Shown here: positions 4,917 through 38,595 of the stretch, in pieces | How the letters are laid out: every line of letters starts with the position of its first letter | Position numbering within the stretch: the stretch's first letter is position 1 | Source: Spirochaetia bacterium | GTDB taxonomy: Bacteria; Spirochaetota; Spirochaetia; Sphaerochaetales; Sphaerochaetaceae | Length of the DNA: 64,000 bases | Assembly (NCBI GenBank): GCA_022482625.1 | Contig: JAKVOU010000001.1 | Span: 1,226,784-1,290,783 of the forward strand | Direction: 5' to 3' | Notes under the pieces: model-generated | The model's database searches: none | What the model saw: the letters and a program-made list of their open reading frames with translations, nothing else | What the model was told of the DNA's origin: nothing | Made by a program: the position numbers and the translations under genes

Positions 4917-4945
4917 AAAATATCATAATTTACTACTTATGTCAA
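4917..4945 (-). promoter_or_regulatory. sigma70-like promoter of the predicted small RNA
   Basis: On the minus strand a perfect TTGACA (4945-4940) is followed by a 17-bp spacer and TATTTT (4922-4917). This predicts a start near 4910, at the base of the first helix. No minus-strand protein gene lies downstream before the terminator at 4734. Confidence 0.55.
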
Positions 4946-4971
4946 CAGACATGATAAATTTTGTCCTGTTG

Positions 4972-4989
4972 TTTTACTATATAGTAAAA
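4972..4989. promoter_or_regulatory. 18-bp perfect palindrome upstream of the small-RNA promoter
   Basis: TTTTACTATATAGTAAAA is a perfect inverted repeat about 27 bp upstream of the minus-strand -35 box. It could be an operator for either the small RNA or the diguanylate cyclase gene at 5243. The rest of 4990-5242 is AT-rich and shows no further gene or clear hairpin. Confidence 0.35.
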
Positions 4990-5242
4990 AATATATGTAG
5001 TAAAAAAATACATTTCCTGCTTCTATTGGGTTTATTAGATTTTTCCACTTATTTTCTTCACTATATTGTTAGGTAAAATAACAATATCAAGCAAATAAAA
5101 AATTAGAAACTTATGACAAATATTAATAGATAAATTTATCAAATTAATTTAATTCATAGCTTTTCAAAAATATGCCACGGATGATATCCTTTTATTAAGC
5201 ACAAAATTATTATACTATTAGTATCATCAAAAGGGGTTTTAC

Positions 5243-20637: not shown

Positions 20638-20669
20638 TTTTCGTCATATTCATATCGTACAAAATCTGC

Positions 20670-20688
20670 TGTACTCATTTTGTACTCA
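20670..20688 (+). repeat. TGTACTCA tandem pair, left end
   Basis: TGTACTCATTTTGTACTCA. The copy at 39181-39199 differs at two bases and has the same orientation. The two lie about 100 and 60-80 bp inside the proposed ends, as expected for integrase arm-binding sites. Confidence 0.5.
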
Positions 20689-20694
20689 AAAGGA

Positions 20695-22866
20695 TTATAT
20701 ACTCATCATCTTATTATAATGATCTATATAGCCCTCAATTTCGAACACTTTTTTAAATGCGGAACGGAAACTACAATAGTCAAACTCCTTGATATCAAAA
20801 ATGTTTTGACCTTTAGAATGAGATTCTCTATTCATGTATCTGTTAAAGGCCATATAACTCGTTTTTTGTAATTCCGGTCTTTGGAATATTTGAGCAAAGT
20901 CCTGCTTTTCTACAAAATTGAAAAAATATTCCATTACATTTCTCATGCAATTCGCTATCAATGCTGGAGCCTGCTTTTCGTCTTTTATAATATGCCAATA
21001 TGCCTGATAATCATTTTGAATATCCTCATATTTCATGTTCTCAAAATAGCTACTCTCTGTGTTCTTACATATTCTAAAGAGTTTTTGAGTTTCCTTTCGC
21101 TCCTTATGATTTGTATTGGTCAGTTCATAAAAGAAATAAAGACTGTGAGTTAAAATAAAAAGTTGATCATATTTTTCAGTCCTTAAAAACTCATTATGAA
21201 TTAGCCTACCAATATTGAAAACATAAATATGTGACAAACTGGATATAGGATCATCAATCACTACAATCTTCTTATTTGAAGCCTTCTCAGCAATTGATTC
21301 TCCCTTGCACAATTCTATAAAATAAAGAAAACTAATTACCATTTTCTCGCCTTCGCTCAAGGTTTTAAAGACATTTTCATCTGAATCATCACGCTTTAGT
21401 TTATATAGTGCTTCCTCCTCAGAATACTTCTCTATAGTAAAATCTGTAATCCCAATATCTATCAAGCCATTCTTTATATTCTCTACTGCTTCATCGATAT
21501 TTACCGTTTTCTTTCGGTTTTCCTCTATCAGTAACGTATTAGTTTTAATCTCAGATGATTTTGTCTGTAAATCTTTTTGGGCATTTTTTACTGATTGCTC
21601 ATAAGTCTTTTCATTTGCTGTATATAACTCAATTACAGCATTATACTCTTTACGCATAAGCTGCCAAAATCTATCCCTGATTTTTCCCTTAGACCCTTTT
21701 ATATCAGTTATTCTTTGATTATAGAGAGCAATTTCACCGTTAGCGTTTTCAATAATACTGTTTATAGATGCTATTATTTCTTTAATCGGCTGCAGCGAAA
21801 CCTGAATGCTAGGGGTCTTTGACTTCTCCCTCAGAGTGTTTAGATTTTGCTCTGATACAGATATAAGATTCTCACTAAGTTTTTCTATATCTGTTTTCTT
21901 TTTTTCGAGAAAAGCATCTTCTTTAATAACATTCAAAAAATCCGTTGATTTTTTTATTTCTTCATCATATCTTAAAATCATCTGCTCAATCTGAGATTTG
22001 TCACGATTATAACTCTCATCAAAATAAGCACTGATTTGATCAAGGAAATTCTGTGTAATAGTTTTCTGCTGACAGAAAGGACATACTCCTTTTTCTCCAT
22101 CTATATGAACATATTTAATTCCTGAATTAACCCAATCTGAATTTCCCAACTCTTCAATTAACGTGGCTACAGAACTGTTCTTATTTCCAACTATGACTTT
22201 AGAAAGCAATTCAGATTGTTCAATATCTTCAACATTAATCAAGACTTTTGATAAGAGTTGTCTGCTCTGAGCTTCACCTTGAAGTTGCTGCGCTTCTATC
22301 TTTAAATCATCTACGGAATAATCAATCTCTCCTTCCGGCTTTTCTAAGGAAATAAGATGTTTAAAAAGGGTATCTTTATTACCTTTTAGTCCATCTAAGC
22401 AAAACTCTAAGACCCTATCACCGCCAGTGTATTCCGTCTTAATTTTCCATATTTGTTTCTTGTATTCTTCAATCTCGCTTAAATGTTTTTGCTCATCTTC
22501 TGTCTTTTTCTCTTCAATTTTCTTCTTTTGCTCAGTCAGCTTTTTTACTTCAGAACTTGCAGTATCAATTACTTTTTGAGCTTTAGCATTTCCCTTTGAT
22601 AAGGTGAATATACCATGTATTCCCTCCGGTTCATAAAAGGTATCCTGAACAAATTTTTGATTATAAACTAATATCGCATCGTTGTCTTCGAGTCCCTCTA
22701 TCCTACATTGTGAAAACCTCGGTGCAGTCTGATCATAAAGAAATTCTGAGAAAGTACTCTTTCCCGTTCCATTTAACCCATATAACAAGTTTACTTTTTT
22801 GTCAGTATCAAGCACTGCCTCTTTTCTATAACTTGCCACCCCTTTTAAAACAATTTTTGAAATCAT
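20695..22866 (-). CDS. rloC: RloC/PrrC-type anticodon nuclease with ABC ATPase head and zinc-hook coiled coil
   Basis: About 723 residues. The N-terminus is an ABC-type head with Walker A GLNGTGKST (about residue 30). A long coiled coil (about 95-450) follows with a CPFC zinc-hook motif near residue 262. The head then returns with signature LSEGEKMVISF and Walker B KIVVIDDPISSL. The C-terminal region has RNVME and, about 40 residues on, a His in RESHS. This fits the R-x3-E...H catalytic triad known for PrrC and RloC, nucleases that cut tRNA anticodon loops. RloC proteins differ from PrrC by the zinc hook and are often linked to type I restriction genes, as here. ATG 22866 has GGGGGAGA upstream and starts 19 bp after the hsdR stop. 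A more general AAA_13 ATPase role is the alternative. Confidence 0.75.
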   Translation of the reverse strand: MISKIVLKGVASYRKEAVLDTDKKVNLLYGLNGTGKSTFSEFLYDQTAPRFSQCRIEGLEDNDAILVYNQKFVQDTFYEPEGIHGIFTLSKGNAKAQKVIDTASSEVKKLTEQKKKIEEKKTEDEQKHLSEIEEYKKQIWKIKTEYTGGDRVLEFCLDGLKGNKDTLFKHLISLEKPEGEIDYSVDDLKIEAQQLQGEAQSRQLLSKVLINVEDIEQSELLSKVIVGNKNSSVATLIEELGNSDWVNSGIKYVHIDGEKGVCPFCQQKTITQNFLDQISAYFDESYNRDKSQIEQMILRYDEEIKKSTDFLNVIKEDAFLEKKKTDIEKLSENLISVSEQNLNTLREKSKTPSIQVSLQPIKEIIASINSIIENANGEIALYNQRITDIKGSKGKIRDRFWQLMRKEYNAVIELYTANEKTYEQSVKNAQKDLQTKSSEIKTNTLLIEENRKKTVNIDEAVENIKNGLIDIGITDFTIEKYSEEEALYKLKRDDSDENVFKTLSEGEKMVISFLYFIELCKGESIAEKASNKKIVVIDDPISSLSHIYVFNIGRLIHNEFLRTEKYDQLFILTHSLYFFYELTNTNHKERKETQKLFRICKNTESSYFENMKYEDIQNDYQAYWHIIKDEKQAPALIANCMRNVMEYFFNFVEKQDFAQIFQRPELQKTSYMAFNRYMNRESHSKGQNIFDIKEFDYCSFRSAFKKVFEIEGYIDHYNKMMSI

Positions 22867-24314
22867 TCTAGTCTCCCCCAATTGTTTACGCTGCTATCGC
22901 GTTATCATTTATGCGTTCTATTACCTTTCTAATTCCCATCCAGATATTAAGATCTGTAAATATCTCAACCACACTTCCCTGATCCGTAAACGGAGATTCT
23001 TGAAGCACAGACAGATCTTTCATCATGCCGTTATGAACGATATACTCAACAATCTGGTTAACAAAGTATATCTGTCGGCTATCAAGGTTGTTATTCTCCA
23101 AGTACTTTGAAAATGCTGCCTTCGCTGCATTCATATCAAGTCCAATGATTTCACGGACAAGTTCCCCCAAAGGCTTAGAACCATATTCCTGCTCATATTC
23201 TTCTTTGGTGCCAAGTTCAGACCAAAGAACCTTTTCCAGTGCCTCTATATCACTATGAGACAATGGAATATTGGACTTAAGCTTCTTGATTGCCTCATTG
23301 TCCTGATGTTCACGGATATAGTATTCCGCTTTTGCCTTATAATTCTTCAGATCATCATTTTCAAGCTCTGATTCATTCCAAGTAACATCAAGGATATCAT
23401 CCTCAAAGTTCGTATCGTAACGAAGCTTGGTATGAGGAATATACTTCATGAGATTACGGAGTTTTTCTCTGATTTCCTCGAACTCGTTAATACCGCAGTT
23501 GTCGATATAATCTGTATGAAGGATCTTATCGATAAGTTCCGCTTGCACCTTTATTTCCGGGATATTGGCCACTCTTGCGATACTACTAACTCGTTTAAAT
23601 AAATCGCTACGGGCTTTACCGTATTTCTTACCCACAAGATAAGCAAGTTCAATACCATACATAAGCGCATCAAAACGCACGGCACTTGCTTCGTCATCAT
23701 TTGGAAGGATCAGCAGAGCAAGCTCTTCTCGGACAATCAATGTATCTTCATATGTCAGTGATTGATAATTTGCCTCTTGGGAATACAAGTCAACATATTT
23801 CAAGTGCTGCCTTACCGCAAAGTTTTCACGAGGAAGCTCCTGCACTTTACCAGTCATCGTTTCTACCAATGCGTTACGATAAGCTATAAGCCTATCCACC
23901 TGGTCAAAGTCCTGCAACTTATATGCAATCTCAAACTGGAGATTAAAGATAGCTCCTTGAAGCGCGATCATATTTGCAGTAGGTTTTCCCTTGCTCATAC
24001 GGAAGAACTCAAAGTTACCGCAGAAATCAAAGATGTAAAACTTGCTCTTGTCTTCTCCGTCGATGAGTCCCGGGCAAAGTCTGGTACCACGTCCGATCAT
24101 CTGCCAGAACTTGGCATAACTCATTACCTTCTTAAAGAAAACAAGGTTCAATACTTCCGGTACATCGATACCGGTATCCATCATATCTACAGATATTGCT
24201 ATCTGAGGTAGCTTATTAGGCTCAGAGAACTCATCTATCAAAGTCTGAGCATAGTTAATTCTATTGTCGATCACCTGCGCAAATCCGTTCAAATGCGGGT
24301 AATCCTTATTAAAG

Positions 24315-25935
24315 GAGGTTTTTGCAAAACTCACGAATGCCTGAATAAATATTCACGGATGATGCATATCCATGCAGAAGCCATGCCTGACAGCTGCAGG
24401 GGATGGAAACCGGCCGCATCACGTAGCCTTCATGGCCTGCCGCAGGCCTGCGCGCACACGCAGGACGGACGCCCTCCCGGGTGCCTGCACTCTGCCATCA
24501 TTTCCATTCCTTCCTGCTATGCGCTCTTCTTCCTTGCCGCCTGCTGCCGTGCTTCCAGCACCTTGCCCATCCGCTTGACGGTCAGCAGCAGCACCGCAAG
24601 CCGCAGGTCGAAACGTGCCCTCGGCCCCCGGCCGTACAGCGCCTTCGGCAGGAAACACTCCTTCAGCTCGCTGTTGGTACGCTCCACCGTGGTCCGTGCC
24701 CGGTACCTGGCGCGTCCCGCAGGGTCCATCTCCTCCTTGGCCCCGTTGCGGTCGGCCTTGAAGTCGATGAGCGGCACCCTGCCCATGGCAAGCACCCTGT
24801 CCCTGATCGCCCCGCTGCTGTAGCCACCGTCCATGAGGGCATACAGCCAGGTGCACCGCCCTGCGGCGATGCGCAGCAGGGGGATCGCCGGCTGCGTGTC
24901 ATGCACGCACGCCCCCGTCACCGCACTGGCCACCGGGATGCCGCTGTCGTCCACTGCCAGGTGTACCTTGTAGCCCACGCGCCACTGCATGTGCCCCCTG
25001 CTGTTCCGCTTCCCCGTGACCGTGCACCGCTGTTCCAGCGTGGCCAGGTAGGCATGGGGGTCCCCGCTGTCGCGCAGCTGCACCAGGCGTGCCTCCTGCC
25101 CCTTCCTTTCCTGCACCGCCTTCTCCTCTGCGCTGCCGGCCTTCGGGCGGCCCCTCCGGCCCTTCTGCCGCTTCGCCCTCACCGCAGGCTTCTCCCGTGC
25201 ATCCACGGGCGTGCTGTCAAGGCTCAGGTGGCACACCGTCCTGCCTGCATAGAACTGCCTGCACAGCCGGTCATGGATCCCCCGGAAGTCCATCTCCTCC
25301 AGCAGCCGTGACGTCCGCCTGCTCACCGACGACGGGCTGGGTACCCGCCCCAGCTGTGTCACCGTCCTCAGGTTCGGGCTCGACTGCAGCAGGGCAACCG
25401 CAGCCGTGACGGTGTCCAGGCGGAAGAAGAGCAGCACCGCACGCACCGCCAGTATGTCCATCAGGCTGTAGCCCCTGCGCCCGGTACGCCCTCCCGCAGG
25501 CCGTGAAAGCCGCGTGGGGACCAGGGCAACCAGTGCCTGCCAGTAGCGCAGGAACTCCACCTCCTTCGGGGTGGGCTCAAGGAAGAAGCAGCCGCACAGG
25601 TCCTGCCGGTCGAAGAGGAGGGGTTGCAGTGAAAGGCGGTTCGGTGTACTATCCATGGTAAAGGCTCCTTTTATTCTTTTTTACAATCAAAGTATATCAA
25701 AAGCGAGCCTTTTTTCATACCCTAAAAAGAATTGTTTTTCAAGAAAAAGATGACGGTACACCTGTCCTTTGCCGTACGGGGCGGGGCTGTCCTCCCGGCA
25801 CCATGGCATGCCGGTGCAGCCTTCCCCTCAGTTTCTCCCCTTTCTTTCCCTTCCGGGCACAGGCCGGGAATCCTGCTGAGAAAACTGCATATTTATGCAC
25901 ACTGACCCATCAGTTTCGAGTTTTGCAAAAACCTC
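24315..25935 (-). mobile_element. insertion sequence with IS4/IS5/IS1182-like DDE transposase
   Basis: The ends are exact 18-bp inverted repeats, GAGGTTTTTGCAAAACTC at 24315-24332 and its complement at 25918-25935. The 4-bp direct duplication AAAG flanks it at 24311-24314 and 25936-25939. It is 1,621 bp with one transposase gene. The coding part is far richer in G and C than everything around it, so it came from a different genome background than either the island or the host. The repeat perfection and intact hsdR flanks indicate a recent insertion. Confidence 0.95.
24517..25656 (-). CDS. DDE transposase of the insertion sequence
   Basis: A 379-residue transposase. The N-terminal part (about 60-130) resembles the DUF772 DNA-binding domain (YSLMDILAVRAVLLFFRLD). 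The DDE triad is visible as LSLDSTPVDAR, YALMDGGYSSGAIRD and TTVERTNSELK, with the Y-(2)-R-(3)-E-like arrangement of the IS4/IS5 superfamily. AAAGGAG lies 9 bases before the ATG, and a TATACT-type -10 is seen further upstream inside the element. The gene appears intact, so the element could still move. Confidence 0.9.
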   Translation of the reverse strand: MDSTPNRLSLQPLLFDRQDLCGCFFLEPTPKEVEFLRYWQALVALVPTRLSRPAGGRTGRRGYSLMDILAVRAVLLFFRLDTVTAAVALLQSSPNLRTVTQLGRVPSPSSVSRRTSRLLEEMDFRGIHDRLCRQFYAGRTVCHLSLDSTPVDAREKPAVRAKRQKGRRGRPKAGSAEEKAVQERKGQEARLVQLRDSGDPHAYLATLEQRCTVTGKRNSRGHMQWRVGYKVHLAVDDSGIPVASAVTGACVHDTQPAIPLLRIAAGRCTWLYALMDGGYSSGAIRDRVLAMGRVPLIDFKADRNGAKEEMDPAGRARYRARTTVERTNSELKECFLPKALYGRGPRARFDLRLAVLLLTVKRMGKVLEARQQAARKKSA

Positions 25936-27867
25936 AAAGATCTCAATAATCTTTTCCGCATGATCATGATTCTTAGCAAAGATAATTGTCTTTCCAAGTT
26001 TCTGACCGTAGTCTACCTTGATACCTTCGGTCATAACAGTATGAAGTACCTGACAAATTGTATCTTCATTGAAAATCCACGAATTGAGTGCTGATGAGCT
26101 GATGGCCTCCGGAACATCTCCGTCTTCCATTTCAAAAGTGCTTTCATATATTGCTTTATCCTCATCGGAAAGATCCGCATATACAATTCCCTGCTCAATG
26201 AACTTTAGCTTTGTTTCTACAGACAGGAAATCTACAAGGTATCCGTTGGTTACAGCCTGTCCCAGCTCATATCCATAAGTAGGAACACCGGGTTCTAATT
26301 CAAATATCTCATACGTGTTCTTATCGATATCATCCTTAGGCGTAGCCGTAAGACCTACAAGCGGTGCATCGAAGTAGGAAAAGATATCTCTATATTTGTT
26401 ATAAATGGATCTATGGGCCTCATCACATATTACGAGATCGAAATGTCCGCTGGTAAAAAGCTTCTGCTCCTCAACCTTTACAGAATCAATGCAGTTCATC
26501 ATTGTCTGATAGGTAGAGAAAACGCAGTGTGCTGTATAGTTATCTTTCTCCTCACAAAGGTTTGTCACTGAAAGTGACGAGTAATTATTTACAAACGCTC
26601 TCTTTGCCTGAGTTACAAGTGATGTTCTGTCAGCAAGGAAAAGGATATTTTGAATCCATCCAGCATCAAGGAGCACATGACATAACTCAATTACAGTTCT
26701 TGTCTTACCAGAACCTGTTGCCATGACAAGTAGCGCTTTACGTCGGTTCTTTTTATCAAAGCTGTCACATACAGCTTTAATTGCGGCTTCCTGGTAGTAA
26801 CGACCGGCAATCTTCTTATCTACGTTTATATGATCAAGGGACGTCCGCATCCTTCTGAGATTGAACATCTTCTCAAGGTCAGCCTTAGAATATATGCAGG
26901 CAACCTTCCTCTCCGGATACTGTCCATCTATTATTCTTGTTTCAAAACCATTGGTTAGGAAAATACAAGGTCTTCTCTTGTACTTTTTTTCCAAAATATC
27001 CGCATAAAGCTTTGCCTGCTGGCGTCCCTTTGATACATCGACACAAGTTCTTTTTGCCTCTATAACTGCAAGTGGTTTATGTGTATTGTCATAAAGAACA
27101 TAATCTACATAGCCAACTTCAGATTTGTTAGGCATACCCGGGAGTTCCACTTCATTGATCCAGTCGGAACCTTCTTTCCATCCGGCATCCATGAGCATAG
27201 CATCAATATAAATCTTTCGTGTTTTATACTCAGAAAGATCCAGTGGTTTCGTAACATAAGTCTCTGCCTGCTCTTCACGCCGAGATGTCAGTTCTTTCTT
27301 TAATGCAAAATTCTCTGCAATTAGTTTTTCTATATCAACGTCAGGGAAATCCTTTTTTACCTGTTCGTTTTCGTCCTTGACCAGCAGAGACTTGTCAAAG
27401 GTATGCTCCTCATATTTATCAGCATAGCAGTAACATACGAAATCAAAGAAGATCTGAAGGTTCTCAAGACAAAGAATCACCTGATCCTCCGTAATCTTCT
27501 TGCCGGAATGAGCAGCATTGTTTCCCATCTTACGAATAAAGTCCATGCGCTTCATAAGATTTTCGTCGATGATATCCCTGAATTCCTCCGTGCTCATTAG
27601 ACTTATCAGATTATCCTGATAAGGCATGGTAAGTGATGCATCAACGGAATACATCCACTTTATTGCAAACTCCATCGCCCTACGGCAGTTGATGATGCAG
27701 GAGGTAGCATCTATATATAAAATTTTCTCAGCCGCAATCGCAATATCAGAAAATGTGTTAAATTTCGGCTCATTTTTCAAATAATCGAAATTGGTCATAA
27801 TACTACCTCCTTGCCATCGTATAATTCAAACGTTTCGCTCTATTTCGAACAAAACTTATGGCATATC

Positions 27868-28393
27868 CTATTTAAATAATTCAGACTCTTCATTATATAA
27901 ATCCAACAACCAAGGTTGCGAAACATACGTCAGTATCATTTCGTTATTCCAGCCCAATGTAAATGCTTGTTCTGGCATGTGTAGAAACAGGTTATTTACT
28001 AAGTAAATCGTATCTCCAGAATTCTTATCCAAAGTGATTGTCTTATCTTTACTTCTCAAAACCTGTAAAATAATAGCTTTTTGTCTTGGGCTGAGTGTCT
28101 GAAGTTTTTTCTTTAAATTCGCCCTGATTCGCTTATTTCTTCTTCTATCTGTAATAATTGAAATCACCGAAAAAAAACAATCATCGTTGAAATTAGAGCC
28201 ACGCTCAATAAAAACACTATGCCAATGACCCGATTCCACAAAACAGGTAATTCACCGAGACTCATTTCCTTTAAAAGATTATCCAGAAGAAAAAGCAGTA
28301 AACCTGTCAGAATTGCTACAGCAACTAAAGCAGGCGTTATTTTTTGAAATTATCAAATGTTTTCTCCGCTATGCTATCAACTGATACACTCAT
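27868..28393 (-). pseudogene. SieB-like superinfection exclusion protein, two frameshifts
   Basis: Starting at ATG 28393 (MSVSVDSIAEKTFDNFKK), the frame breaks at a 6-base A run (28345-28340). It continues one frame over with two membrane segments (ITPALVAVAILTGLLLFLL and VIGIVFLLSVALISTMIVFF), breaks again at an 8-base T run (28177-28170), and ends with a conserved soluble tail (LSPRQKAIILQVL, SGDTIYLVNNLFLHMPEQAF). Adding one base to each run gives a clean 175-residue frame, the usual length of the SieB family, which blocks superinfecting phage at the membrane. It lies between hsdS and hsdR. Decay, phase variation and sequencing error are all possible. Confidence 0.7.
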
Positions 28394-28707
28394 CTATCGC
28401 TTACCTTTCTTTATTCCTTGTGAAATCTGCTGTCTTACTTCTGGCATTTTCATTGCTTCTGTCAACAACGACGGACTAAGCTTCGCTTCAAAATCTTTCC
28501 CTTGAAGCTCTAACTGGTGTGCATGCTCCAGATTCAATTTTTCAAGTTCCATTTGGGGCTTTCGTTCCAATGCATCCAAATCAACTTCGTGCTGCTTTAA
28601 AATAACATTTATATCATTCTTTGCCTGTTTCCGGGCTATAGCATAACTGATATTCCAGATATCAATGCACATAACACAGAAACCATGTAGGGTAAATATT
28701 CTTGCAT
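28394..28707 (-). pseudogene. small membrane-anchored coiled-coil protein, one frameshift
   Basis: From ATG 28707 the frame reads MQEYLPYMVSVLCALISGIS, a probable membrane anchor, and then stops. The next frame continues as ARKQAKNDINVILKQHEVD, a charged coiled coil ending in MKMPEVRQQISQGIKKGKR. One extra A in TATCAGTTAT would join them as a 104-residue protein (GISSYAIARKQ). I recognise the pattern as a small protein that accompanies SieB-like genes, but no function is known to me. It follows hsdS and abuts the SieB-like gene, so it belongs to the defence operon. Confidence 0.55.
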
Positions 28708-28715
28708 AGCCTCTC

Positions 28716-29891
28716 CTAACCAAAATATTCTTGCATCAAACTATCAAAAAGCATTTGCGTTTCTTCTTGTGCCTTTTGAACAACAACTTTTGATTTGTCG
28801 ACTTGTTTGACGAAGTCTGCGAACTCTTTCTGTAGTTCCATTGGTGGTAACATCACAGGTATTTTCTTTAACTCTGTTTTGGTAATAGTCTTGGTAACAG
28901 CTCCATTGACACATCCAGAAATCAGAAACTCACCATAATTGGTATGTAGATACTGATATAAATATGGCATAAGAATATTTTCTTTTATTCTTACCATAAT
29001 CTGATTAAGTCCTAGTGAAACTGGTCTATTCAAATATGGCATAACGTAGTTTTGACCAGCACTACCTATCTTGCATATAATCAACTCGCCACCAAATATC
29101 TGTGATTTTTTAAAGAAGTCATATGCCTCTTTTGAAACATATTTGACATCGTTAGTAAAATCATTCTTTGTGAAATTCGTAAAACGAACCATCATTGCAT
29201 AATCTTCTTCATCTTTCATATCAAGATGATCAACCACTACCTTATTTGCACCATTGGAACCGATATCTCCCATATAATCAACGATATCAATAAAAGGTAT
29301 AGTATCGTACTTATTAGGATTCACCCTTGCATCTCCAAATAACTCGACAAATCGGGCTTTAATGAGTTCGTCTAAAGCAGATAATTCTTCCTGTCTTAAT
29401 GAAATAATGGACTCAATATGCTTCAACTGATTTACAATATCTGTTCTCTCTGATACAGATTTCATATCAATTTCCAAATCACCAATATCAGACAAACTTA
29501 TAGATGGATAAGCAGCATCCTTGACTAGCTGATTAGGTTTATGAAAAGTAAAATAATATCTTAAATATTCAGAGCAATCTTCGTTTGGGGTAATGCATGC
29601 CAAATGGCTTACTACATACGCATCCTGTGGCAAAACATATACATACCCTTTCATACAAGACATTCCACTTTTAGCAAATAAAATTGTTCCTCTCGGATAT
29701 ATTTTCAACCTATGCTCTTTAGCAACATTCTCTGATACTTGCTGAATATCATTGATGTCTTTTCCTTCAATCAATTCTTGAAGATTACCTGCCTTAATAA
29801 AAGGTGTTCCATTATCACAATAATTGCTATCACCTTGTGGTGCTCCTTGCCCAGCGCCTATTACGGCAATATCTTTTAACAATCTTCTCAT
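28716..29891 (-). CDS. hsdS: type I restriction-modification specificity subunit S
   Basis: A 391-residue HsdS with two target-recognition domains, each followed by a conserved helical spacer. The first ends near ISLRQEELSALDELIKARF and the second near LQKEFADFVKQVDKSKVVV. The DNA sequence it recognises cannot be inferred. It is 57 bp downstream of hsdM; a small CGTCC-CGAA-GGACG hairpin lies in the gap. The gene is intact, so HsdM2S methylation should persist despite the broken hsdR. Confidence 0.93.
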   Translation of the reverse strand: MRRLLKDIAVIGAGQGAPQGDSNYCDNGTPFIKAGNLQELIEGKDINDIQQVSENVAKEHRLKIYPRGTILFAKSGMSCMKGYVYVLPQDAYVVSHLACITPNEDCSEYLRYYFTFHKPNQLVKDAAYPSISLSDIGDLEIDMKSVSERTDIVNQLKHIESIISLRQEELSALDELIKARFVELFGDARVNPNKYDTIPFIDIVDYMGDIGSNGANKVVVDHLDMKDEEDYAMMVRFTNFTKNDFTNDVKYVSKEAYDFFKKSQIFGGELIICKIGSAGQNYVMPYLNRPVSLGLNQIMVRIKENILMPYLYQYLHTNYGEFLISGCVNGAVTKTITKTELKKIPVMLPPMELQKEFADFVKQVDKSKVVVQKAQEETQMLFDSLMQEYFG

Positions 29892-29948
29892 CTAATATCA
29901 TCCCTACAAATCCGAATTTATGTTAATACGTCCCGAAGGACGCAACAG

Positions 29949-31448
29949 TTACTCATTTAGAAGCTTTTCAAGCTCATCCATTTCCTGGCTGATCTGCTTC
30001 TCAATATCTCTGATATTTGCCATGATCTCTGATGTCGGTGGATACTCTACCGCAACATATTCAACCTCTTTGTATTTATTGATTGAGAGATCATAACCGT
30101 TATCAGCAATTTCCTTCTTAGATACCATGAAGGACTTTTCTGTGCGTTTTCTGTCCTTTTCAATCTCAAGGCTCTTGAATCGGCTGATAATATCAGGGAT
30201 ATCATTATCCTTGATTTCAGAGCGCTTATCATCAAGGCTGAAACCGTCTGCGGTCATATCATAGAACCATACATCATCTGTTCCGCCGTGACCGGTCTTG
30301 GTAAAGATGAGTATTCCTGTTGAAACTCCAGCATAAGGTTTAAACACACCGGAAGGCATGGAGATAACTGCTTCAAGTCGCTGGTTCTCTACAATTTCTT
30401 TTCTGATAGCCTGATGTGCTTTGGAAGATCCAAAGAGCACACCATCAGGAACGATACATGCACATCTTCCTCCAATCTTAAGCATTCTTACAAACAATGC
30501 CAGGAATAAAAGTTCTGTTTTCTTGGTCTTACATACCTTCTGAAGATCTGTTGATACAGTATCTGCATCATGGTTGCCCTTAAAGGGTGGATTAGCCAAA
30601 ATAAGGGAGTACATATCCTTATCAGGGTTCTGATCTGATAAGCTGTCACGATACTCGATAAATGGATTCTCAACACCATGAGTCATCATATTCATGGCAC
30701 CGATACGAAGCATGGTTCTGTCCATGTCATATCCGTGGAACATATCATTCATGAAATGATTTCTGTTCTGTTTATCAAGAAGAACTTCTTTCTTGTATTT
30801 CTCTCTTAAGTAGTCACCACTGGTAACAAGGAATCCGGAAGTTCCGCAAGCAGGATCACAGATACTGTCTGTCGGTTTCGGATCCATCATCTCTACCATC
30901 ATACGAATAATATGTCTCGGAGTTCTAAAATGGCCGTTAACACCAGACTGAGCAATCTTGGAAAGAAGGTACTCATATACATCGCCTCGGATATCTGTCT
31001 GATGAAGCGCTTCCATCATGGAGTAAATCTCGTCCATTGCATCCACAATCTTGGAAAGCATCAAAGGAGTATTTACCTTAAAGATCGCGTCATCCATATA
31101 TTTGCTATATGCAGAATCCTTGTCTCCGTGAAGATTCTTTATAAAAGGGAATACCCACTCCTGGACAACGGAGTACATTCTCTGCGCCGGGAAATCATGG
31201 AATGTAGACCACTTAAGCTGATTACCGTCAACCTTGCGGTCTCCAATCTCGACTCCATCTGCAAATATACTCTTGTAAGGAAGTCCAAGCATAGCAGCTT
31301 CCTTTGCACGGAGATTGTCTGTATCATCCAAATCCTTTATGAACATGAGATACGTCATCTGCTCAACAACATCAAGCGGATTTGTAATTCCACCGTTCCA
31401 AAAGATCTCCCACAAACTATCAATCTTATTACCAAGTTCTCCGGTCAT
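29949..31448 (-). CDS. hsdM: type I restriction-modification DNA methyltransferase subunit M
   Basis: A 499-residue N6-adenine methyltransferase. The SAM-binding motif DPACGTSGFLV and catalytic NPPF (LILANPPFKG) are intact, within the usual HsdM layout: N-terminal helical domain, then SAM domain, then C-terminal helices for HsdS binding. It starts 12 bp after the fic stop codon, so the two are one operon. It should protect host DNA by itself with HsdS. Confidence 0.95.
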   Translation of the reverse strand: MTGELGNKIDSLWEIFWNGGITNPLDVVEQMTYLMFIKDLDDTDNLRAKEAAMLGLPYKSIFADGVEIGDRKVDGNQLKWSTFHDFPAQRMYSVVQEWVFPFIKNLHGDKDSAYSKYMDDAIFKVNTPLMLSKIVDAMDEIYSMMEALHQTDIRGDVYEYLLSKIAQSGVNGHFRTPRHIIRMMVEMMDPKPTDSICDPACGTSGFLVTSGDYLREKYKKEVLLDKQNRNHFMNDMFHGYDMDRTMLRIGAMNMMTHGVENPFIEYRDSLSDQNPDKDMYSLILANPPFKGNHDADTVSTDLQKVCKTKKTELLFLALFVRMLKIGGRCACIVPDGVLFGSSKAHQAIRKEIVENQRLEAVISMPSGVFKPYAGVSTGILIFTKTGHGGTDDVWFYDMTADGFSLDDKRSEIKDNDIPDIISRFKSLEIEKDRKRTEKSFMVSKKEIADNGYDLSINKYKEVEYVAVEYPPTSEIMANIRDIEKQISQEMDELEKLLNE

Positions 31449-31460
31449 TATAGTTCTCCT

Positions 31461-32537
31461 TTATTCCTTATCTCTGTTCCAAACATATTTTGTATATCTG
31501 CCGCCACCGATCTTTATGATGTTTTCCGATGACAATAGTTCGGCCAATGCTCTTTCAACTGTTATACGACTGATGTCAGGGCATTTCTCCATAATCTGCG
31601 ACTTTGTGATTTCACCGTATGTGTTCTTAATTAGTTCAGCTACACGTTCCGGTTTCGAAAGACCGCTGACAACCAGAGTCTTAACCCTGTCAGAAAAATC
31701 TCTGTATGCGGCAACTACAACGCCAAGCATATACTGTACAAACGGCACATAATTATTTTCTTCTTCATGCCAGTTAATAGAGCTTTCCTGTAGGCATTCA
31801 TAGTATGAAGCCTTGGTCTTTTCTATAAGATGCTCGATACTGATATACTTTCCTACGATATATCCAGCTCTATATAATAAAAGCAATGTAAGTAGCCTGC
31901 TCATTCTTCCGTTACCGTCATTAAACGGATGGATACATAAGAAATCCAATATGAACATTGGTATCAAAAGAAGCGGATCTATCGTTCCAGTTCCAAGAGC
32001 TTTATCAAATTCATTACAAAGGTTCTCGATTGCTTCAGGCGTTTCCCATGCAGGAACTGGTCTGAATCTTACGAACTTGTTACCCTGCTCATCTTCTTCC
32101 TCAATGATATTGTCCGCAGCTTTATACTTTCCGCCGATATCATAACCTTCAAATTTATATAGACCTCTATGAAGCTGAAGGATCATATTCGGCCTTATCG
32201 AAATATAATCATGACTTTCATGAATTGTATTAAGAACATCTCTGTACCCGGCGATTTCTCGCTCATTTCTCGTCTTAGGTGTGGTCTTATCCTTAACAAG
32301 TGCTTTTAATCTGGCATCAGAAGTATAGATACCTTCAATCTTGTTGGATGCCTCAGTACTCTGAATCTTGGCTATCTCTACAAGCTGTGTCAGTGTATCT
32401 GCCTTCGCTTCAATAAAAAGTGACTGTTCGCCTTTATACTCATGGATCTGTGTAAGCAATGCCACAATCTCAGGTGTCAGTAGCTTTTCCATTTTTTTAC
32501 TATAATCAAAATTTCTCAATTCAATATCCTCATTCAA
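31461..32537 (-). CDS. Fic family protein (AMPylase-type) with C-terminal winged helix
   Basis: A 358-residue Fic protein. The active-site motif HPFNDGNGRMSR is complete, so transfer of AMP (or another nucleotide) to a protein target is expected. An N-terminal inhibitory motif S-x3-E-G is present (SNKIEG, about residue 68), marking class II self-inhibited Fic proteins. The last 75 residues look like a winged helix (ISRITVERALAELLSSENI). The start appears to be TTG 32537, with no strong ribosome-binding site. It is the first gene of the defence operon and lies directly behind a strong promoter surrounded by repeat operators, which its own winged helix may bind. Confidence 0.9.
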   Translation of the reverse strand: MNEDIELRNFDYSKKMEKLLTPEIVALLTQIHEYKGEQSLFIEAKADTLTQLVEIAKIQSTEASNKIEGIYTSDARLKALVKDKTTPKTRNEREIAGYRDVLNTIHESHDYISIRPNMILQLHRGLYKFEGYDIGGKYKAADNIIEEEDEQGNKFVRFRPVPAWETPEAIENLCNEFDKALGTGTIDPLLLIPMFILDFLCIHPFNDGNGRMSRLLTLLLLYRAGYIVGKYISIEHLIEKTKASYYECLQESSINWHEEENNYVPFVQYMLGVVVAAYRDFSDRVKTLVVSGLSKPERVAELIKNTYGEITKSQIMEKCPDISRITVERALAELLSSENIIKIGGGRYTKYVWNRDKE

Positions 32538-32563
32538 ATATCAATTCACTCATAAGCGGATAT

Positions 32564-32664
32564 AATGATGCAATTAAATGATAATACGCAATATACTCAT
32601 TGTCAACATTAACTACATCATTTTTTTAAAAATGATGTAGTTAAGCAATTAATGATGTAATTAA
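32564..32664 (-). promoter_or_regulatory. defence operon promoter with four operator repeats
   Basis: On the minus strand TTGACA (32606-32601), a 17-bp spacer and TATCAT (32583-32578). Four copies of AATGATG(T/C)A(A/G)TTAA lie at 32564-32577, 32609-32622 (inverted), 32631-32644 and 32651-32664. One overlaps the predicted start point and three sit upstream of -35. The middle two form a perfect 13-bp inverted repeat, CTACATCATTTTT and its complement. This is strong evidence for tight control of the fic-hsd-rloC operon. Confidence 0.7.
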
Positions 32665-32696
32665 AAAATCTGGCGGGAGAATTGACTCTCTCGCCA
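32663..32696 (-). terminator. terminator after the mobilization module
   Basis: Hairpin TGGCGAGAGA...TCTCCCGCCA on the minus strand (one A-C mismatch) followed by TTTTTT. It separates the small mob-linked gene from the defence promoter. On the plus strand the stem is fully paired and ATTTTT follows, so it may act both ways. Confidence 0.5.
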
Positions 32697-32705
32697 TTTT
32701 TCATA

Positions 32706-33050
32706 TTATCCAATTGCTTCTGCATCTACCCAGGCATATTTACCCTTCTCATTTTTCTTTACGGTACATCGCCACCATGTTTCATCCTCTACCTTTTCAA
32801 AATCAACCTCACACTGCTTAGGACTATATTTGTCTTCGCCATTCCTGGTATGCCGGAAGCAAAACAGTTTAAATCTATTTCCATCAGCTGTTTCAAAATA
32901 ACATATCAGCCCCATCGAAAATGATTTCCGATACCATCCTCTGAATATCAGCTTAAGATCATATACACCTTCCTCTTTCAAGGTTTCATAGGAGCGATCA
33001 TCCCGCTGTTCAAATTCATCTGGCGTTGTAAGTACACCATACATATTCAT
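32706..33050 (-). CDS. uncharacterised 114-residue island protein
   Basis: I do not recognise the family. The protein is soluble, with many aromatic residues and mixed charge (FRGWYRKSFSMGLICYFET, DETWWRCTVKKNEKGKYAW). ATG 33050 has AGAAGG 5-6 bases upstream; a TTG at 33074 is in frame and overlaps the end of the relaxase gene. It is the last gene of the mobilization module, ends before a terminator and appears intact. A role in mobilization is suggested only by position. Confidence 0.55.
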   Translation of the reverse strand: MNMYGVLTTPDEFEQRDDRSYETLKEEGVYDLKLIFRGWYRKSFSMGLICYFETADGNRFKLFCFRHTRNGEDKYSPKQCEVDFEKVEDETWWRCTVKKNEKGKYAWVDAEAIG

Positions 33051-33070
33051 ATTTACCTTCTTTCTCACAA

Positions 33071-34372
33071 TCAAATTGCGATATCATGTTTTTTATCTTT
33101 TACAATCTCTAACTCACTTTTCTGCTGATCCTGCTCCGATGCTTTCTGTTTACTGAGTTCTAGCTTCTCACGAAGAGTCTTTGGTCGGATGAATTCCTTA
33201 AAGAGATCCAGCAGATTATGACTCTTAAGAAATTCTGTACATTGTTTGTACTTGTCCTTCCATTTTTGGAGTTCTCCGGTCAGTTCAGCAATCTTCTTTT
33301 CCTTGGAATCCAATGCCCGGCCATACTGCCTATTCAAATTTTCAAATGTGCCGGCAGCTCTGTATCTTGCAATCATCTAATCAAAGATTTTCTTTGGAAT
33401 CTTTACCATAGGTTCTCCTCCAAAAATCGGAGTTGTCACAGTGGCCATTTCCCTGATTTCTGAGATTTCCTTATCTACCGGTTTGCCTGCATCCAAGATT
33501 TTATCGAGAGTCTTTGCCTTTACTTCAACTTTTTTCTCAGCTTCAGAAATTCGCTCATTGATTTCATGCAGCGTTTCCTGTTGCTTTGAAATCTCCGCAT
33601 CGATATCAGCCATTGCTTCGGTAATTTCAATCTTCTCAGAGTTCAGAATCTCAATTTCTGCTTCTGTAGCTTCTTTCTCCCTCATGGCTTGTTTATATTC
33701 CGGGATGCTATAACTATCACAATCTACGCCGAGAATCTCCATCTCAATTCCTCTATCGTAACATAGTTCCATGAGATAGTTTCGCTCTCGTTCCTGCCAA
33801 TGCATGGTCTCGTTATCTGTCTTGGCAACAGCCGGAGCGATTCCCATTTCCTGCAAAGCCTTCGTCAGGCTATTCCTCGTTTTTAGTCCGGTCTTATAAC
33901 CATGAGCAACCGGAATATAATCCAGATGCAGATGAGGTGTTGCCTCATCCATATGAAAAACTGCATTGAATAGAATCAAATTAGGATTCCTTTCCTGAAA
34001 TGTCCTAACATACTCATTCAGAACTTCCTTGGCCTGCTTTGCATCCTCTGACAGCACTCCATTCTCATCCAATACTCCAGTATCATCTTTCTTTCCAATC
34101 TGAACCAAGGTCTCGTAAAATTGTTTTTCTTTATTCCCGGAATTTTTTATCTTCGCCAGATAGTCATCAATCTTACGATCACTGCGCTTTTGCTTGGCAT
34201 TATATTCTGCCACTGCCTGCCCAAAGATCTCTTCGTAAGCAGATTGCAATGACTGCTGAAGATAATACATATTCCAGGAGACTCAATCCTTATCTATATT
34301 ACTGGCAATGAACTCTCTGTTGTTATGACGAAGACTTCCTTTGCCTTTTACAAAAGATAATGTTTTTGCCAT
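33071..34372 (-). pseudogene. MobV/MobL-like relaxase (plasmid recombination protein), two in-frame stops
   Basis: From ATG 34372 the frame begins MAKTLSFVKGKGSLRHNNREF, meets TGA at 34285-34283 (codon 30), and resumes in the same frame with the relaxase core. The core includes the metal-binding NAVFHMDEATPHLHLDYIPV (H-D-H-x-H-type). A second stop, TAG at 33379-33377, separates the coiled-coil tail (MIARYRAAGTFENLN). With both stops read through the protein would be about 433 residues. Each stop is one C-to-T change away from Arg (CGA) or Gln (CAG). The relaxase is expected to nick at the island's transfer origin; as it stands it should be non-functional. Confidence 0.8.
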
Positions 34373-34399
34373 TCATCCATACCTCCTTTTCTGCGCTTA

Positions 34400-34545
34400 T
34401 CTTTTCCCGCCTAAGCGGGCCCGCCGCATACCGGCGGGGTTCTGTTACTCTTGAAAATCATGTACATTAGCACATGCGCGAAATTTGCAAGCACGAAGTG
34501 TCGGAAGTAACGTTTTATTAGTTTTGACACTGCGTATCAAAACAT
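34400..34545. other. candidate transfer origin / structured non-coding region
   Basis: The 180-bp gap before the relaxase gene holds two GC-rich hairpins (CCCGC-CTAA-GCGGG and CCCGCC...GGCGGG, about 34409-34440), an inverted AGTGTC...GACACT pair (about 34496-34530), and GCGTATCAAAA at 34532. Placement beside mobV is typical of oriT. The GC-rich hairpins could also end the upstream VapE-like gene's message. Confidence 0.35.
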
Positions 34546-34553
34546 AAGTCGCT

Positions 34554-35831
34554 CTACCGAAGGTTGCCTTCAGCAGGACTCCTGCGGAGAGCTTCGATGC
34601 TATTGTTCATAATATTTCCGATTTCCTGAAGCTCCCACTGCTTCGGATTATCAGAATCTCGCCTCAACGCATCTCGGTAGATCATCCTGCTACAGACATA
34701 ATCATCATGATAGCTATCGAGCCAGACCTGAATGATTCCGACATTTGTATCTTCCGGCATATGCTCTTTTTGCAATTTCTTAATATACTCAGCCGTTTTT
34801 CTGGAAAGCTTAAGTTTAAAGTCTTTATTCCTCCGATAGAAATCCATTATCTCAGCCCAGACCTGAATGATGTACTCTCTGGACTCTAGCTCATTCTCCA
34901 GAATGTGTTTTTCAGCCATTTCCATATTCACAGTGATGGGAGCAAATCTACGATTTCCGGTACGATCCAAGGGAAGAAAATCCAGCATATTGCTGGTTCC
35001 CACAAAAACGCATTGTCTTGGCCTGTCCTCAGGATGCACTTCATAAGGAATCTTATAATTGTCCTTTTGCTTGCTGAGGAAGGACTTGATCTCCTCCACA
35101 GTCTTTGCATTAACTGTAGCAAGCATCTCCGGCATTTCGATGATCCAGTGTCCTTGAAGCTTACGGTACACATTATCATCATCCAGCCTTCAAAGGTCGT
35201 CTGAAAACCATTCATCCTTGATTGCAAGGAGCCGGAAGAGTGTAGACTTTCCGGCTCCCTGACCTCCGATAAGGCATACCATAATTTCAAATTTGCATCC
35301 CGGATCATAGATTCTGTGAATCGCTGCCTGCATCAACAGTGTCATAATCTCTGTTTCGTACTCTGACTTTTCTACGCCAAGATACTTTGGCAGAAGATCT
35401 CCAACTCTGCTGATACCGTCCCACTTTAAATTCTCCAGATAATCCTTTATGGGATGAAAATGATTTTGGCTTGCAATGATATTCATTGCCTTTCAAATCA
35501 TCTTGTAATTCTTCAATCCATAAGTTCGTTCCAGTAGCCAATCAATCTGATCAATATCTACATCGCGAATTCCACCGGTTGGCATATCCCACCCAAGATT
35601 TTTAATAATGTCCATCTTGTTTGTGAGATCGTTATGACAAATGGCTCCGGCAAGTGCCGGATCATACTGAAGTGCTGTCATACAGTTATCGATGCTTTGA
35701 CAGATCTGACCCTTCTCGTTTGTCTGAAGCATGTTCTTAACATCTTCCGTAGTATAGAAAGGTCTTTCATTAAGCACTCTTGCTGTTTCTTCCCAGGATC
35801 GTTTCTCCTGCTCGCTTAACATTTGCGACAA
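34554..35831 (-). pseudogene. VapE-like P-loop ATPase (virulence-associated E family), two in-frame stops
   Basis: One continuous frame of 426 codons interrupted by TGA at 35495-35493 and 35192-35190. The Walker A GGQGAGKSTLFRLLA lies in the middle piece, and the family motifs HWIIEMPEMLA and DRPRQCVFVGTSNMLDFLP in the last. Proteins of this family act as replication helicases of phage satellites and mobile islands, next to a CHC2 primase as here. Both stops are CGA-to-TGA candidates (context MI-stop-KAMNIIA and DDL-stop-RLDDDN, where relatives have a basic residue). It overlaps the primase gene by 62 bp. It is probably inactive. Confidence 0.78.
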
Positions 35832-36417
35832 TACGGCTCACCTCCTTCCCATCTGTCAGAAAGAAGTCTCTGGCTTCCTCTTCCGAACCCATACAAAGGA
35901 TATCCAACCAGTATCCGATGATCGCCTTAACATGCATCATATAGGCAAATCCATTTGATACATACACCACATGCGGATCTGCATTCATAAGATGCTCTTC
36001 GGACTGTTCAATCAACTGCTCACATTCCAGCAGTTCATCAATTTCTTTTCTCTTCCACTCCTGAAAGTGCCCCTTAATATCAGTGATTCTTGCACGGTCT
36101 GTACGCTGCCTCTCGATAACTTGTCTTTCCTGATCTGAAAGCCTATGGTCAGTTTCAACTCCTAGCGCAAAATCTTCGTTGATCTTACAGGCTGCTTCAT
36201 ATTGTCCAATGCCAAAGAACGCTGCAACATAACTAATCGCATCACCGTGCGCTTCGTATCCGAAGCAGTGATAATGATCAATATCAACCTTCATACTTGG
36301 ATGCTTATCATCATGGAAGGGACAACATGCCATTCCATTCCTGTTCAACTTTAGACCATAATGCATTGCCACATCTTTTGCAGAAACGCGGGCCTTTACT
36401 TCTTCAAAAATATTCAA
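35770..36417 (-). CDS. CHC2 zinc-finger DNA primase-like protein with altered zinc ligand
   Basis: A 215-residue N-terminal-primase-type protein, likely priming island replication with the VapE-like ATPase. The CHC2 finger starts CCPFHDDKHPSMKVD and continues DHYHCFGYEAHGD, where the family has CFGC. The fourth zinc ligand is thus Tyr (TAC for TGC), a G-to-A change that should disable zinc binding. After residue 90 the protein is helical and charged, without a TOPRIM domain. The frame is otherwise open. Confidence 0.75.
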   Translation of the reverse strand: MNIFEEVKARVSAKDVAMHYGLKLNRNGMACCPFHDDKHPSMKVDIDHYHCFGYEAHGDAISYVAAFFGIGQYEAACKINEDFALGVETDHRLSDQERQVIERQRTDRARITDIKGHFQEWKRKEIDELLECEQLIEQSEEHLMNADPHVVYVSNGFAYMMHVKAIIGYWLDILCMGSEEEARDFFLTDGKEVSRIVANVKRAGETILGRNSKSA

Positions 36418-36458
36418 ATAGTGTCCTCCTGAATTTCATTTTTTTGTTGTTTGTACCC

Positions 36459-36552
36459 AGGAGCTTTGATATACTGAACTTGCAAAATTTAGTAATCGAA
36501 AGCTCCTTACGGGCTTTTCACTTAAAATCCTCTGTTACCAGCAGAGGATTTT
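36459..36552 (-). terminator. terminator of the mobC-like gene and leader inverted repeat
   Basis: A hairpin with 11-bp arms AAAATCCTCTG (36524-36534 with 36542-36552) overlaps the mobC-like stop codon and is followed by A/T-rich sequence. Further on, 36459-36467 and 36499-36507 (AGGAGCTTT with AAAGCTCCT) form a second inverted repeat before the primase gene. Both may limit read-through from the integrase region. Confidence 0.45.
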
Positions 36553-36844
36553 ATCGTTTCATCAGTTTCAATAATTCCTGCAGAATCATCTGCAACTCTT
36601 CGGAATCATAGGCATCACCCCTTTCCATTTTTTCGTTGATATCTTCCAAAACCAATGCCAACCGGTCTGATTGATACATGCCGGCTACGATATTGATCTG
36701 TTGACCAAGAATGGCCGCCCTGTAATATTCCCCTTTTTGTATTCCGGCCACTTTGATGCGGGCTTCAACCAGCTTCTTTTCTTCATCGCTAAGCCAAAAG
36801 GCGATTGTATTATGGCGTTTTCTTGCTTTTCTCTCGCAAGGCAT
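36551..36844 (-). CDS. MobC-like relaxosome accessory / mobilization protein
   Basis: A 97-residue basic protein with a predicted ribbon-helix-helix start (TIAFWLSDEEKKLVEARIKVAG, in which the strand TIAFWLS precedes two helices). It then has the pattern GEYYRAAILGQ usual in MobC-type mobilization proteins. The C-terminus is acidic-helical. Such proteins bind oriT with the relaxase. The ATG at 36844 (MPCERKAR) lies within the 3' end of the integrase gene (overlap about 35 bp). Confidence 0.7.
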   Translation of the reverse strand: MPCERKARKRHNTIAFWLSDEEKKLVEARIKVAGIQKGEYYRAAILGQQINIVAGMYQSDRLALVLEDINEKMERGDAYDSEELQMILQELLKLMKR

Positions 36845-37913
36845 CTTCTTCACCTCGATTCACTTTTCCAAGAGCATCTGCAATCTTAAACTGTGCATCT
36901 GCCGATGGATGACAGTATGTTTCAATGGTTGTGGTCACTTTTTCATGACCCAGTCGCTTGGAAATTGCCAGAGGGCTGATTCCCATATCCACCAACAGGG
37001 ATGCATGAGAATGTCTTAAACAATGCACCGTAATTTTCTTTACACCGGACAGTTCAATCCCTCGTTCCATCTCATGCTCAAAGAACCGCTTGGTCCTTTC
37101 AGGAAAAAGTCTTGATCCGGGCCTTGGCTTATACAAACAGGCCATATATTCCTGCAAAGCCAGTGCGAGTTCATCGTGTATCGTGATCTGTCGGATTGAG
37201 TTCTCCGTCTTGGGTGTAGAAATGATGCCTTTTTGTTTCAGCCTTGTATAAGATTCATCGATTGTAATTACTTTGTTTTCCAAATCGATATCTTCTACCT
37301 TCAGGGCCAGTAATTCTCCTACACGGATTCCGGTCCAAAAGAGAATCTGAAAGCCAATCCACGACTCATGCTTATCACTGACGGCATCCAGGAATTGTCT
37401 GAATTCCTCTAGTGTCCAATAAGGTCTTTCATCTGCTCGCCCCTTTCCCATACTTCCTGCTTTCTTACATGGATTCGATTTGAAATCATAGAAGCTAACT
37501 ACATAATTCAATATTGCGGAGAGCTGATTATTGATGGTTCTCAGATACGTTGGCTTGAATCCCATTCCCATCATTTCACCTTGCCACTTTCGAATCTTTG
37601 CCGGAGTAATTTCATTGATCGGAGTAGTTCCGAAATACGGAAGGATTTTCTGATTCATCAGGTATTCCTTGTTATCCATCGTTGTTTCTTTCAGTCGCTT
37701 ACTCATATCCGTTTTGTAGATATCCCAGAAATCCGAGAGCGTCATACTTGGATCCGATGCCTGCTGTAACAGGAAATGACTCAGCCAGTCTTCTGCTTCT
37801 TTCTTGGTTCGAAAACCTCTCTTAGAAGATTTCCTTTTGGTTCCGGTCCAATCCGTATATCTGAACTGTATATACCAGGTTCCGTTGGAATCTCTTTTTG
37901 CACTATTTGCCAT
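36810..37913 (-). CDS. int: tyrosine recombinase (site-specific integrase)
   Basis: A 367-residue integrase of the Tn916/phage type. It has an N-terminal arm-binding domain (TWYIQFRYTDWTGTKRKSS), a SAM-like core-binding domain (about 75-160) and a catalytic domain with all key residues: Arg in TGIRVGELLAL, HCLRHSHAS, His in KRLGHEKV, and the nucleophile Tyr in TTIETYCHP. It is intact, in contrast to the mobilization genes beside it. It should catalyse integration at the guaA 3' end. Its stop overlaps the mobC-like gene and its start overlaps by one base the stop of the excisionase-like gene, so they are cotranscribed. Confidence 0.95.
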   Translation of the reverse strand: MANSAKRDSNGTWYIQFRYTDWTGTKRKSSKRGFRTKKEAEDWLSHFLLQQASDPSMTLSDFWDIYKTDMSKRLKETTMDNKEYLMNQKILPYFGTTPINEITPAKIRKWQGEMMGMGFKPTYLRTINNQLSAILNYVVSFYDFKSNPCKKAGSMGKGRADERPYWTLEEFRQFLDAVSDKHESWIGFQILFWTGIRVGELLALKVEDIDLENKVITIDESYTRLKQKGIISTPKTENSIRQITIHDELALALQEYMACLYKPRPGSRLFPERTKRFFEHEMERGIELSGVKKITVHCLRHSHASLLVDMGISPLAISKRLGHEKVTTTIETYCHPSADAQFKIADALGKVNRGEEDALREKSKKTP

Positions 37914-38113
37914 TATGCTATTGCCACCTCCCTGTGTGAGCTTCCGAAATACTTCTCATCAAAGTAATCCTTAGGGATCTTGCCATCCACTACCAGATAT
38001 CCCTGCTTTGCCAGTTCCTGGTTCATCTGTTTCACGATGGTGTAGCTCTTAGTTCTTCCAACGCCGATCATCTTTGAAACTTCCGACGCCTTGTAATAAA
38101 GTTTTTCATCCAT
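37913..38113 (-). CDS. excisionase-like small DNA-binding protein
   Basis: A 66-residue protein with a winged-helix/MerR-like reading (LYYKASEVSKMIGVGRTKSYTIVKQMNQELAKQG, of which KASEVSKMIGVGRTKSY is the helix-turn-helix). It is similar to small proteins (DUF3173/Xis type) upstream of Tn916-like integrases. It probably directs excision by the integrase. It is intact and ends in a one-base overlap with the integrase start. Confidence 0.75.
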   Translation of the reverse strand: MDEKLYYKASEVSKMIGVGRTKSYTIVKQMNQELAKQGYLVVDGKIPKDYFDEKYFGSSHREVAIA

Positions 38114-38426
38114 ACTTTTCGTTCCTTTCTTTTTTCATTTTTGTAAGTTTCTTTACCAACAGCCGATCTGATAGCTGGATCACCATCACACATACGTCGC
38201 TTTCCGTATCTCCGAGAATTAGTTCCCCCAAGCTTTCCCCATTACGTGCGACGGTTTTTCACCGTTCAAGTTGTGGCTGGGAAGGAGTATCATTTGTGGC
38301 CGTTACTGCGATTGAAGGTTCCATACCTTCATTTGGGAATTGTCCTTTTACCGCTCCATCATTTTTGATATCATCGCGAGAATCCGTATCGCTGCTAGCC
38401 TCCGTAACCGACTGCGTCTTATTCAA
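38106..38426 (-). pseudogene. uncharacterised short frame upstream of the excisionase gene, with in-frame TGA
   Basis: On the minus strand an open frame of about 107 codons runs from about TTG 38426 to TGA 38108-38106. It is interrupted once by TGA 38261-38259 (context LER-stop-KTVARNG). Its final stop overlaps the excisionase ATG by 8 bp (ATGGATGA), the spacing of a translationally coupled gene. The tail ELILGDTESDVCVMVIQLSD looks protein-like. The start is unclear, since a further TGA precedes the TTG. I do not recognise the family. It may be another island gene lost by a CGA-to-TGA change, or chance. Confidence 0.35.
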
Positions 38427-38479
38427 TTTTCAAGGTTCATTCAAATCCGGCTGAGGATTCGTTATTCAAGCCGTATTAT

Positions 38480-38547
38480 TTGATACGTGTCAATATCTTT
38501 TGATTGCATTTTCGTATCAAAAGATATAAAATTAGTTCAAAAGATAC
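38480..38547 (+). promoter_or_regulatory. operator cluster and promoter region of the XRE gene
   Basis: Contains TTGATACGTGTCAA (38480-38493, near-palindrome) and the perfect 12-bp inverted repeat ATATCTTTTGAT / ATCAAAAGATAT at 38493-38504 and 38516-38527. A third half-site CAAAAGATAC lies at 38538-38547. A TTGATT and TATAAAAT-like pair lies within. The sites sit where the XRE protein would repress itself and perhaps the divergent excisionase side. Confidence 0.55.
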
Positions 38548-38595
38548 GCAAGGTTCAACTATGCCTATCATGTACATCGAAAGGAGCGTGTTTCC

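Follow-up and report, generated by a model that had tools for sequence, protein, structure and literature searches.

The gene rloC lies at positions 20695 to 22866 on the reverse strand of the window, which is the whole stretch of 64,000 nucleotides analysed here, and encodes a 723-residue protein with an ABC ATPase, a coiled coil bearing a zinc hook and, at its C terminus, a domain of the anticodon nuclease (ACNase) type. Its ATG start, as read from the open reading frame, is preceded by GGGGGAG; the TTG at 22881 taken as the start by the ORF finder, five codons further out, was rejected because the ATG has a good ribosome-binding site. Upstream lies hsdR in two pieces, both on the reverse strand: a 3′ part (22886 to 24314) with helicase C-terminal and EcoEI_R_C domains, by which Pfam places the C-terminal domain of HsdR in the EcoEI type, and a 5′ part (25936 to 27798) with DUF4145, HSDR_N and ResIII domains. 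Beyond it are a SieB-like ORF of 123 aa (27868 to 28239, reverse strand; Pfam SieB, 27.5 bits against a cut-off of 26), an unassigned 109-aa ORF (28394 to 28723), and the reverse-strand genes hsdS (28716 to 29891, Methylase_S), hsdM (29949 to 31448, N6_Mtase and HsdM_N) and fic (31461 to 32537), whose product is a SoFic-like Fic protein according to Pfam and PADLOC profile matches. Before the insertion described below, these genes formed one co-directional run, fic-hsdM-hsdS-(two small ORFs)-hsdR-rloC, in which 19 bp separate the hsdR stop from the rloC ATG, so that rloC is the last gene of the hsd operon.

The two parts of hsdR are separated by an insertion sequence (IS) of 1,621 bp (24315 to 25935, reverse strand), bounded by 18-bp terminal inverted repeats and a 4-bp target duplication, CTTT. 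It encodes a DDE_Tnp_1 transposase (24517 to 25656), transcribed in the same direction as rloC and matching IS1182/IS5 models distantly, and the hsdR 3′ part begins at the IS boundary. When the IS is removed, a stop-free hsdR frame of 1,095 codons is obtained. The interruption of hsdR noticed in the first-pass annotation is thus borne out as a clean insertion, which removes restriction; the hsdM and hsdS frames are intact, so that the damage is confined to the restriction subunit. The genome contains seven identical copies of the 1,621-bp element (L057-L063), each with its own 4-bp duplication, and the insertion in hsdR is therefore recent. Further copies in the same genome are diverged and partial.

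The whole run lies between the copies of a 20-bp direct repeat, CTGTACTCA(AA/TT)TTGTACTCA, of which the 3.47-Mb genome contains exactly two. One copy, CTGTACTCATTTTGTACTCA (20669 to 20688, forward strand), is found 6 bp past the rloC stop, and the other, CTGTACTCAAATTGTACTCA (39180 to 39199, forward strand), is near the 3′ end of guaA; both are putative att repeats. Between them, genes for mobilisation and integration (33377 to 37913, reverse strand) encode a Mob_Pre relaxase, a VapE-like protein, a CHC2 primase, a NikA-like protein and a tyrosine integrase, and these are followed by fic, hsd and rloC. The unique repeat pair, the enclosed mobility genes and the low GC content of rloC (32.4% versus 43.5% for the whole window) suggest that 20669 to 39199 is a putative integrative element of 18.5 kb with hsd-rloC as cargo and rloC as its last gene. 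One of its ends is by the guaA 3′ end and the other by a tRNA-Ala gene. This tRNA-Ala gene was considered as the attachment site and rejected, the repeat being about 216 bp away and the other end carrying no tRNA fragment. An empty site was sought in a few genomes of the genus, where the matches consisted of the tRNA gene only and the junction was not covered.

The ABC head, CPFC hook and C-terminal Arg-x3-Glu with a later His that had been noticed in the protein were all found in it. In ATG numbering, Walker A is GLNGTGKS (residues 30-37), the ABC signature LSEGE (503-507) and Walker B IDDPISS (537-543), followed by a linchpin His in TH (573-574). The hook residues 262-265 are encoded at 22072 to 22083 and the triad segment, R642-x3-E646-x36-H683, at 20818 to 20943, both on the reverse strand; Ser precedes the triad His (S682-H683), and the gap from Glu to His is 36 residues. 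Across 17 homologs of 25-90% identity, K36, the hook with its C262 and C265, LSEGE, IDDP, H574, R642, S682 and H683 do not vary, and position 646 is E or D. This invariance indicates that the motif set is more than a chance occurrence, and both hook cysteines are present in 39 of 39 relatives. Between rloC copies, dN was 0.05-0.07 and dS 0.72-0.89, a dN/dS of about 0.06-0.09 against relatives; this strong constraint is older than the IS insertion and says nothing on selection since.

RloC proteins have been defined by an ABC ATPase interrupted by a coiled coil with a CxxC hook, a length of 658-897 residues, and a C-terminal Arg-x3-Glu-x36-52-His in which Ser often stands before the His (PMC2610378). 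The window protein has every one of these sequence features, and its 723 residues fall within the published range. Its Pfam match is AAA_13 (377 bits), and PADLOC assigned 835 bits to the candidate family PDC-S06 and 42 bits to its PrrC model. PrrC proteins, at 341-416 aa and without hook insert, are about half its size. In comparison, the PADLOC PrrC model gave 325 and 447 bits with two shorter proteins encoded in other genomes of the class, and both of these adjoin frames that we read as HsdM by eye. When the RloC profile was aligned to these two proteins with hhalign (97% probability, E 1e-10), R, E and H were in register, so that R642, E646 and H683 fall on the nuclease triad of PrrC. When 61 relatives were searched with a single protein sequence, only the window's own copy was returned, and the PADLOC family model reached further; phmmer found no match to RloC among PDB sequences.

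In a tree of 51 sequences, the presence of the triad changes only once, with 100/100 support. The window protein is in the triad-bearing part, closest to copies from Lachnospiraceae and apart from His-less AAA_13 relatives, which comprise 12 sequences, all from viral contigs, in one clade (100/100). Neither of the findings named in the first-pass annotation as refuting the claim, residues other than the triad or grouping with plain AAA_13 proteins, was obtained. Motif definition, PrrC alignment, tree and PADLOC models together support the RloC-type identity first proposed from the sequence alone, and we regard the window gene, on its sequence features, as an ordinary, well-formed member of the known RloC family. 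The His-less clade (L108, L113, L117, L119, L120, L123, L124, L129, L138, L139, L140 and L153) keeps the ABC motifs and a CPxC hook, and L117 and L139 are without the Arg as well. A protein of Streptococcus phage Javan105 (L165, 2929-5187) is annotated as the translation-disabling ACNase RloC; its alignment to the window protein stops short of the His segment, and no Ser-His occurs in the stretch displayed there, so this annotation may be unsafe.

The full RloC model had a mean pLDDT of 81.7 and a pTM of 0.44, and its best solved match was a Rad50 head (Z 17.1, rmsd 3.5, 247 residues). In this model CPFC, the putative zinc hook, lies in a loop between long helices, and the region of H683 is poorly modelled (pLDDT below 50 at 681-693). 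The C-terminal domain alone gave a helical model. The assignment of this domain to HEPN comes from the literature (PMC3710099), and structure comparison gave no confirmation of it. Foldseek returned no significant match for the domain alone, and VIA-align gave no row of Z ≥5, with HEPN toxins at Z of about 3, like unrelated rows.

Enzymes of the RloC family cut tRNAs of their own cell upon phage attack or DNA damage, and their anticodon nuclease activity excises the wobble nucleotide. We consider the window gene, with a probability of roughly 0.8, to encode an RloC, that is, a Rad50-like protein with a PrrC-type ACNase, which travels as mobile cargo and is most likely self-controlled after the IS insertion. 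In the resting state, the ATPase-hook region would keep the nuclease inactive. A signal resembling a DNA break, for instance during phage infection or after genotoxic damage, would lead to an ATP-dependent change that activates it, and the active enzyme would then cut tRNA anticodon loops and stop translation. For the window protein, tRNA cleavage, internal switching and the DNA-break trigger are here extended from published RloC work. The gene would move as cargo of the element, together with the type I restriction-modification (R-M) genes with their EcoEI-like HsdR, the SieB-like ORF and the Fic gene, and RloC would most likely have stayed under its own internal control when restriction was lost.

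An unlikely alternative, itself compatible with RloC identity, is that the IS has separated rloC from its promoter, leaving a silent remnant that is unexpressed and will decay. rloC does lie downstream of the IS, promoter-like sites in this region are no more frequent than expected by chance, and a gene silenced by so recent an insertion would still appear intact. Against this, its frame and ribosome-binding site are undamaged; the transposase reads in the same direction as rloC and the IS has only a weak terminator-like site at its 3′ end, so that read-through is possible. It is less probable that the protein is an AAA_13 protein of the SMC/Rad50 type whose C-terminal domain targets other RNA or DNA than tRNA anticodons. 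The AAA_13 and PDC-S06 models are broad, the heads of Lamassu, Retron-Eco7 and SMC proteins also match the RloC model, and the His-less sister clade indicates that this domain is able to change. Such a target fits poorly with the full triad at the published spacing, the Ser before its His and the in-register alignment to PrrC.

With respect to control, RloC has been described as internally switched, its ACNase being governed by a DNA-responsive ATPase and the zinc hook, and hsdR, hsdM and hsdS mutants of Acinetobacter baylyi had a wild-type RloC phenotype, with data shown for hsdR and hsdM (PMC3874168). For the family as a whole, this literature largely answers the question, posed in the first-pass annotation, whether RloC is self-controlled. 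The data were obtained with other, distant RloC proteins, and internal control of the window protein would follow by extension. Since the known RloC enzymes have an on/off switch of their own, the broken hsdR probably does not unleash this one, and the idea that control was lost with HsdR found no support in that work.

The relatives also oppose it. In the closest, L032, a sheep-rumen Lachnospiraceae, an rloC 90% identical to that of the window follows an N-terminally truncated hsdR, of which the remaining part (1305-3260) has 95% identity. The rloC of Eubacterium ruminantium (L033) is 87% identical; there, homology breaks off about 80 bp into the hsdR tail (4942-5038), and no other hsd match occurs within 17 kb. 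A further copy (L034, 87%) has no hsdR within 250 bp upstream, the extent of sequence compared; L035 ends inside rloC and was excluded from the upstream comparison. Other members do have R-M neighbours: an Eco57I-type methylase with helicase (L039, L040), D12 and N6/N4 methylases (L042), or type I genes with open hsdR (L047, L051). No annotated R-M gene was found within 7 kb of four plasmid homologs (44-47% identity), whose annotation tables are incomplete. In one other genome of the class the hsdR-rloC order recurs, with an open hsdR frame of 1,075 aa 2 bp upstream, and in another rloC sits between hsdS and hsdR.

The comparison with PrrC, the nuclease of the type Ic system EcoprrI, holds in part: the ABC ATPase, the triad and the type I linkage are shared, whereas the PrrC partner is type Ic and the window HsdR EcoEI-like. 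PrrC is silenced by its linked R-M enzyme (PMC2610378). The least probable of the readings considered here is that a type I complex likewise holds the window RloC, so that the IS either deregulates it or leaves it to HsdM/HsdS or to the second type I system of the genome (G000:C1, about 229.5-233 kb; L069, L072), which has open hsdM (723 codons) and hsdR (1,012 codons) frames and could act in trans. The 19-bp spacing within one operon and the gene orders in the two other genomes of the class agree with such silencing; the A. baylyi mutants, the constrained rloC that close relatives keep with only hsdR fragments, and the different HsdR type argue against it, and an always-on tRNase would be expected to be counter-selected. 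We retain an internally switched RloC as the preferred reading. Since rloC of this subfamily is often beside R-M genes of several kinds, some R-M influence is conceivable; it is unlikely to be essential for linked RloC proteins.

Loss of hsdR beside rloC is recurrent: by IS in the window, by truncation in L032, down to an 80-bp tail in L033, and as a relic in Geobacillus kaustophilus. HsdR might form a second layer, sensitive to anti-restriction, over the DNA-break switch, and its recurrent loss might turn rloC into a solo mobile defence gene, a proposal that we consider rather improbable. The clean interruption makes the locus a convenient natural test of the dependence of RloC on a linked restriction enzyme. 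Should RloC stay inactive until DNA is damaged, even with hsdR broken, self-control would extend to an R-M-linked RloC; should it be toxic alone, some RloC proteins would be PrrC-like after all.

By the motif definition and residue numbers given in the literature, through which the comparison was made, the RloC proteins of G. kaustophilus and A. baylyi have the same split ABC head with CxxC hook, R-x3-E-x36-52-(S)H and size range (PMC2610378, PMC3874168). The window gene differs in host lineage and in its EcoEI-like hsd linkage, while A. baylyi rloC is not R-M linked. The prototype rloC of G. kaustophilus also adjoins its hsdR relic (PMC2610378), and with this precedent in the founding paper the arrangement would be unsurprising to a specialist. 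Campylobacter jejuni, set beside the window by description, likewise has an RloC-type gene in a type I hsd locus among the restriction-linked rloC/rloE/rloG (Miller et al. 2005, cited in PMC2610378), and unlike that arrangement the window rloC follows hsdR. R-M and Doc/Fic genes around rloC have already been described, the same set of R-M, Doc/Fic and ABC-HEPN being found in mobile contexts with RloC-like ABC-HEPN genes (PMC3710099). Beyond those neighbourhoods, the ends of the putative element, the IS-broken hsdR and the SieB-like ORF are described here, and new in this locus is the hsd-rloC cargo in a putative element beside guaA, related to DNA of rumen Lachnospiraceae.
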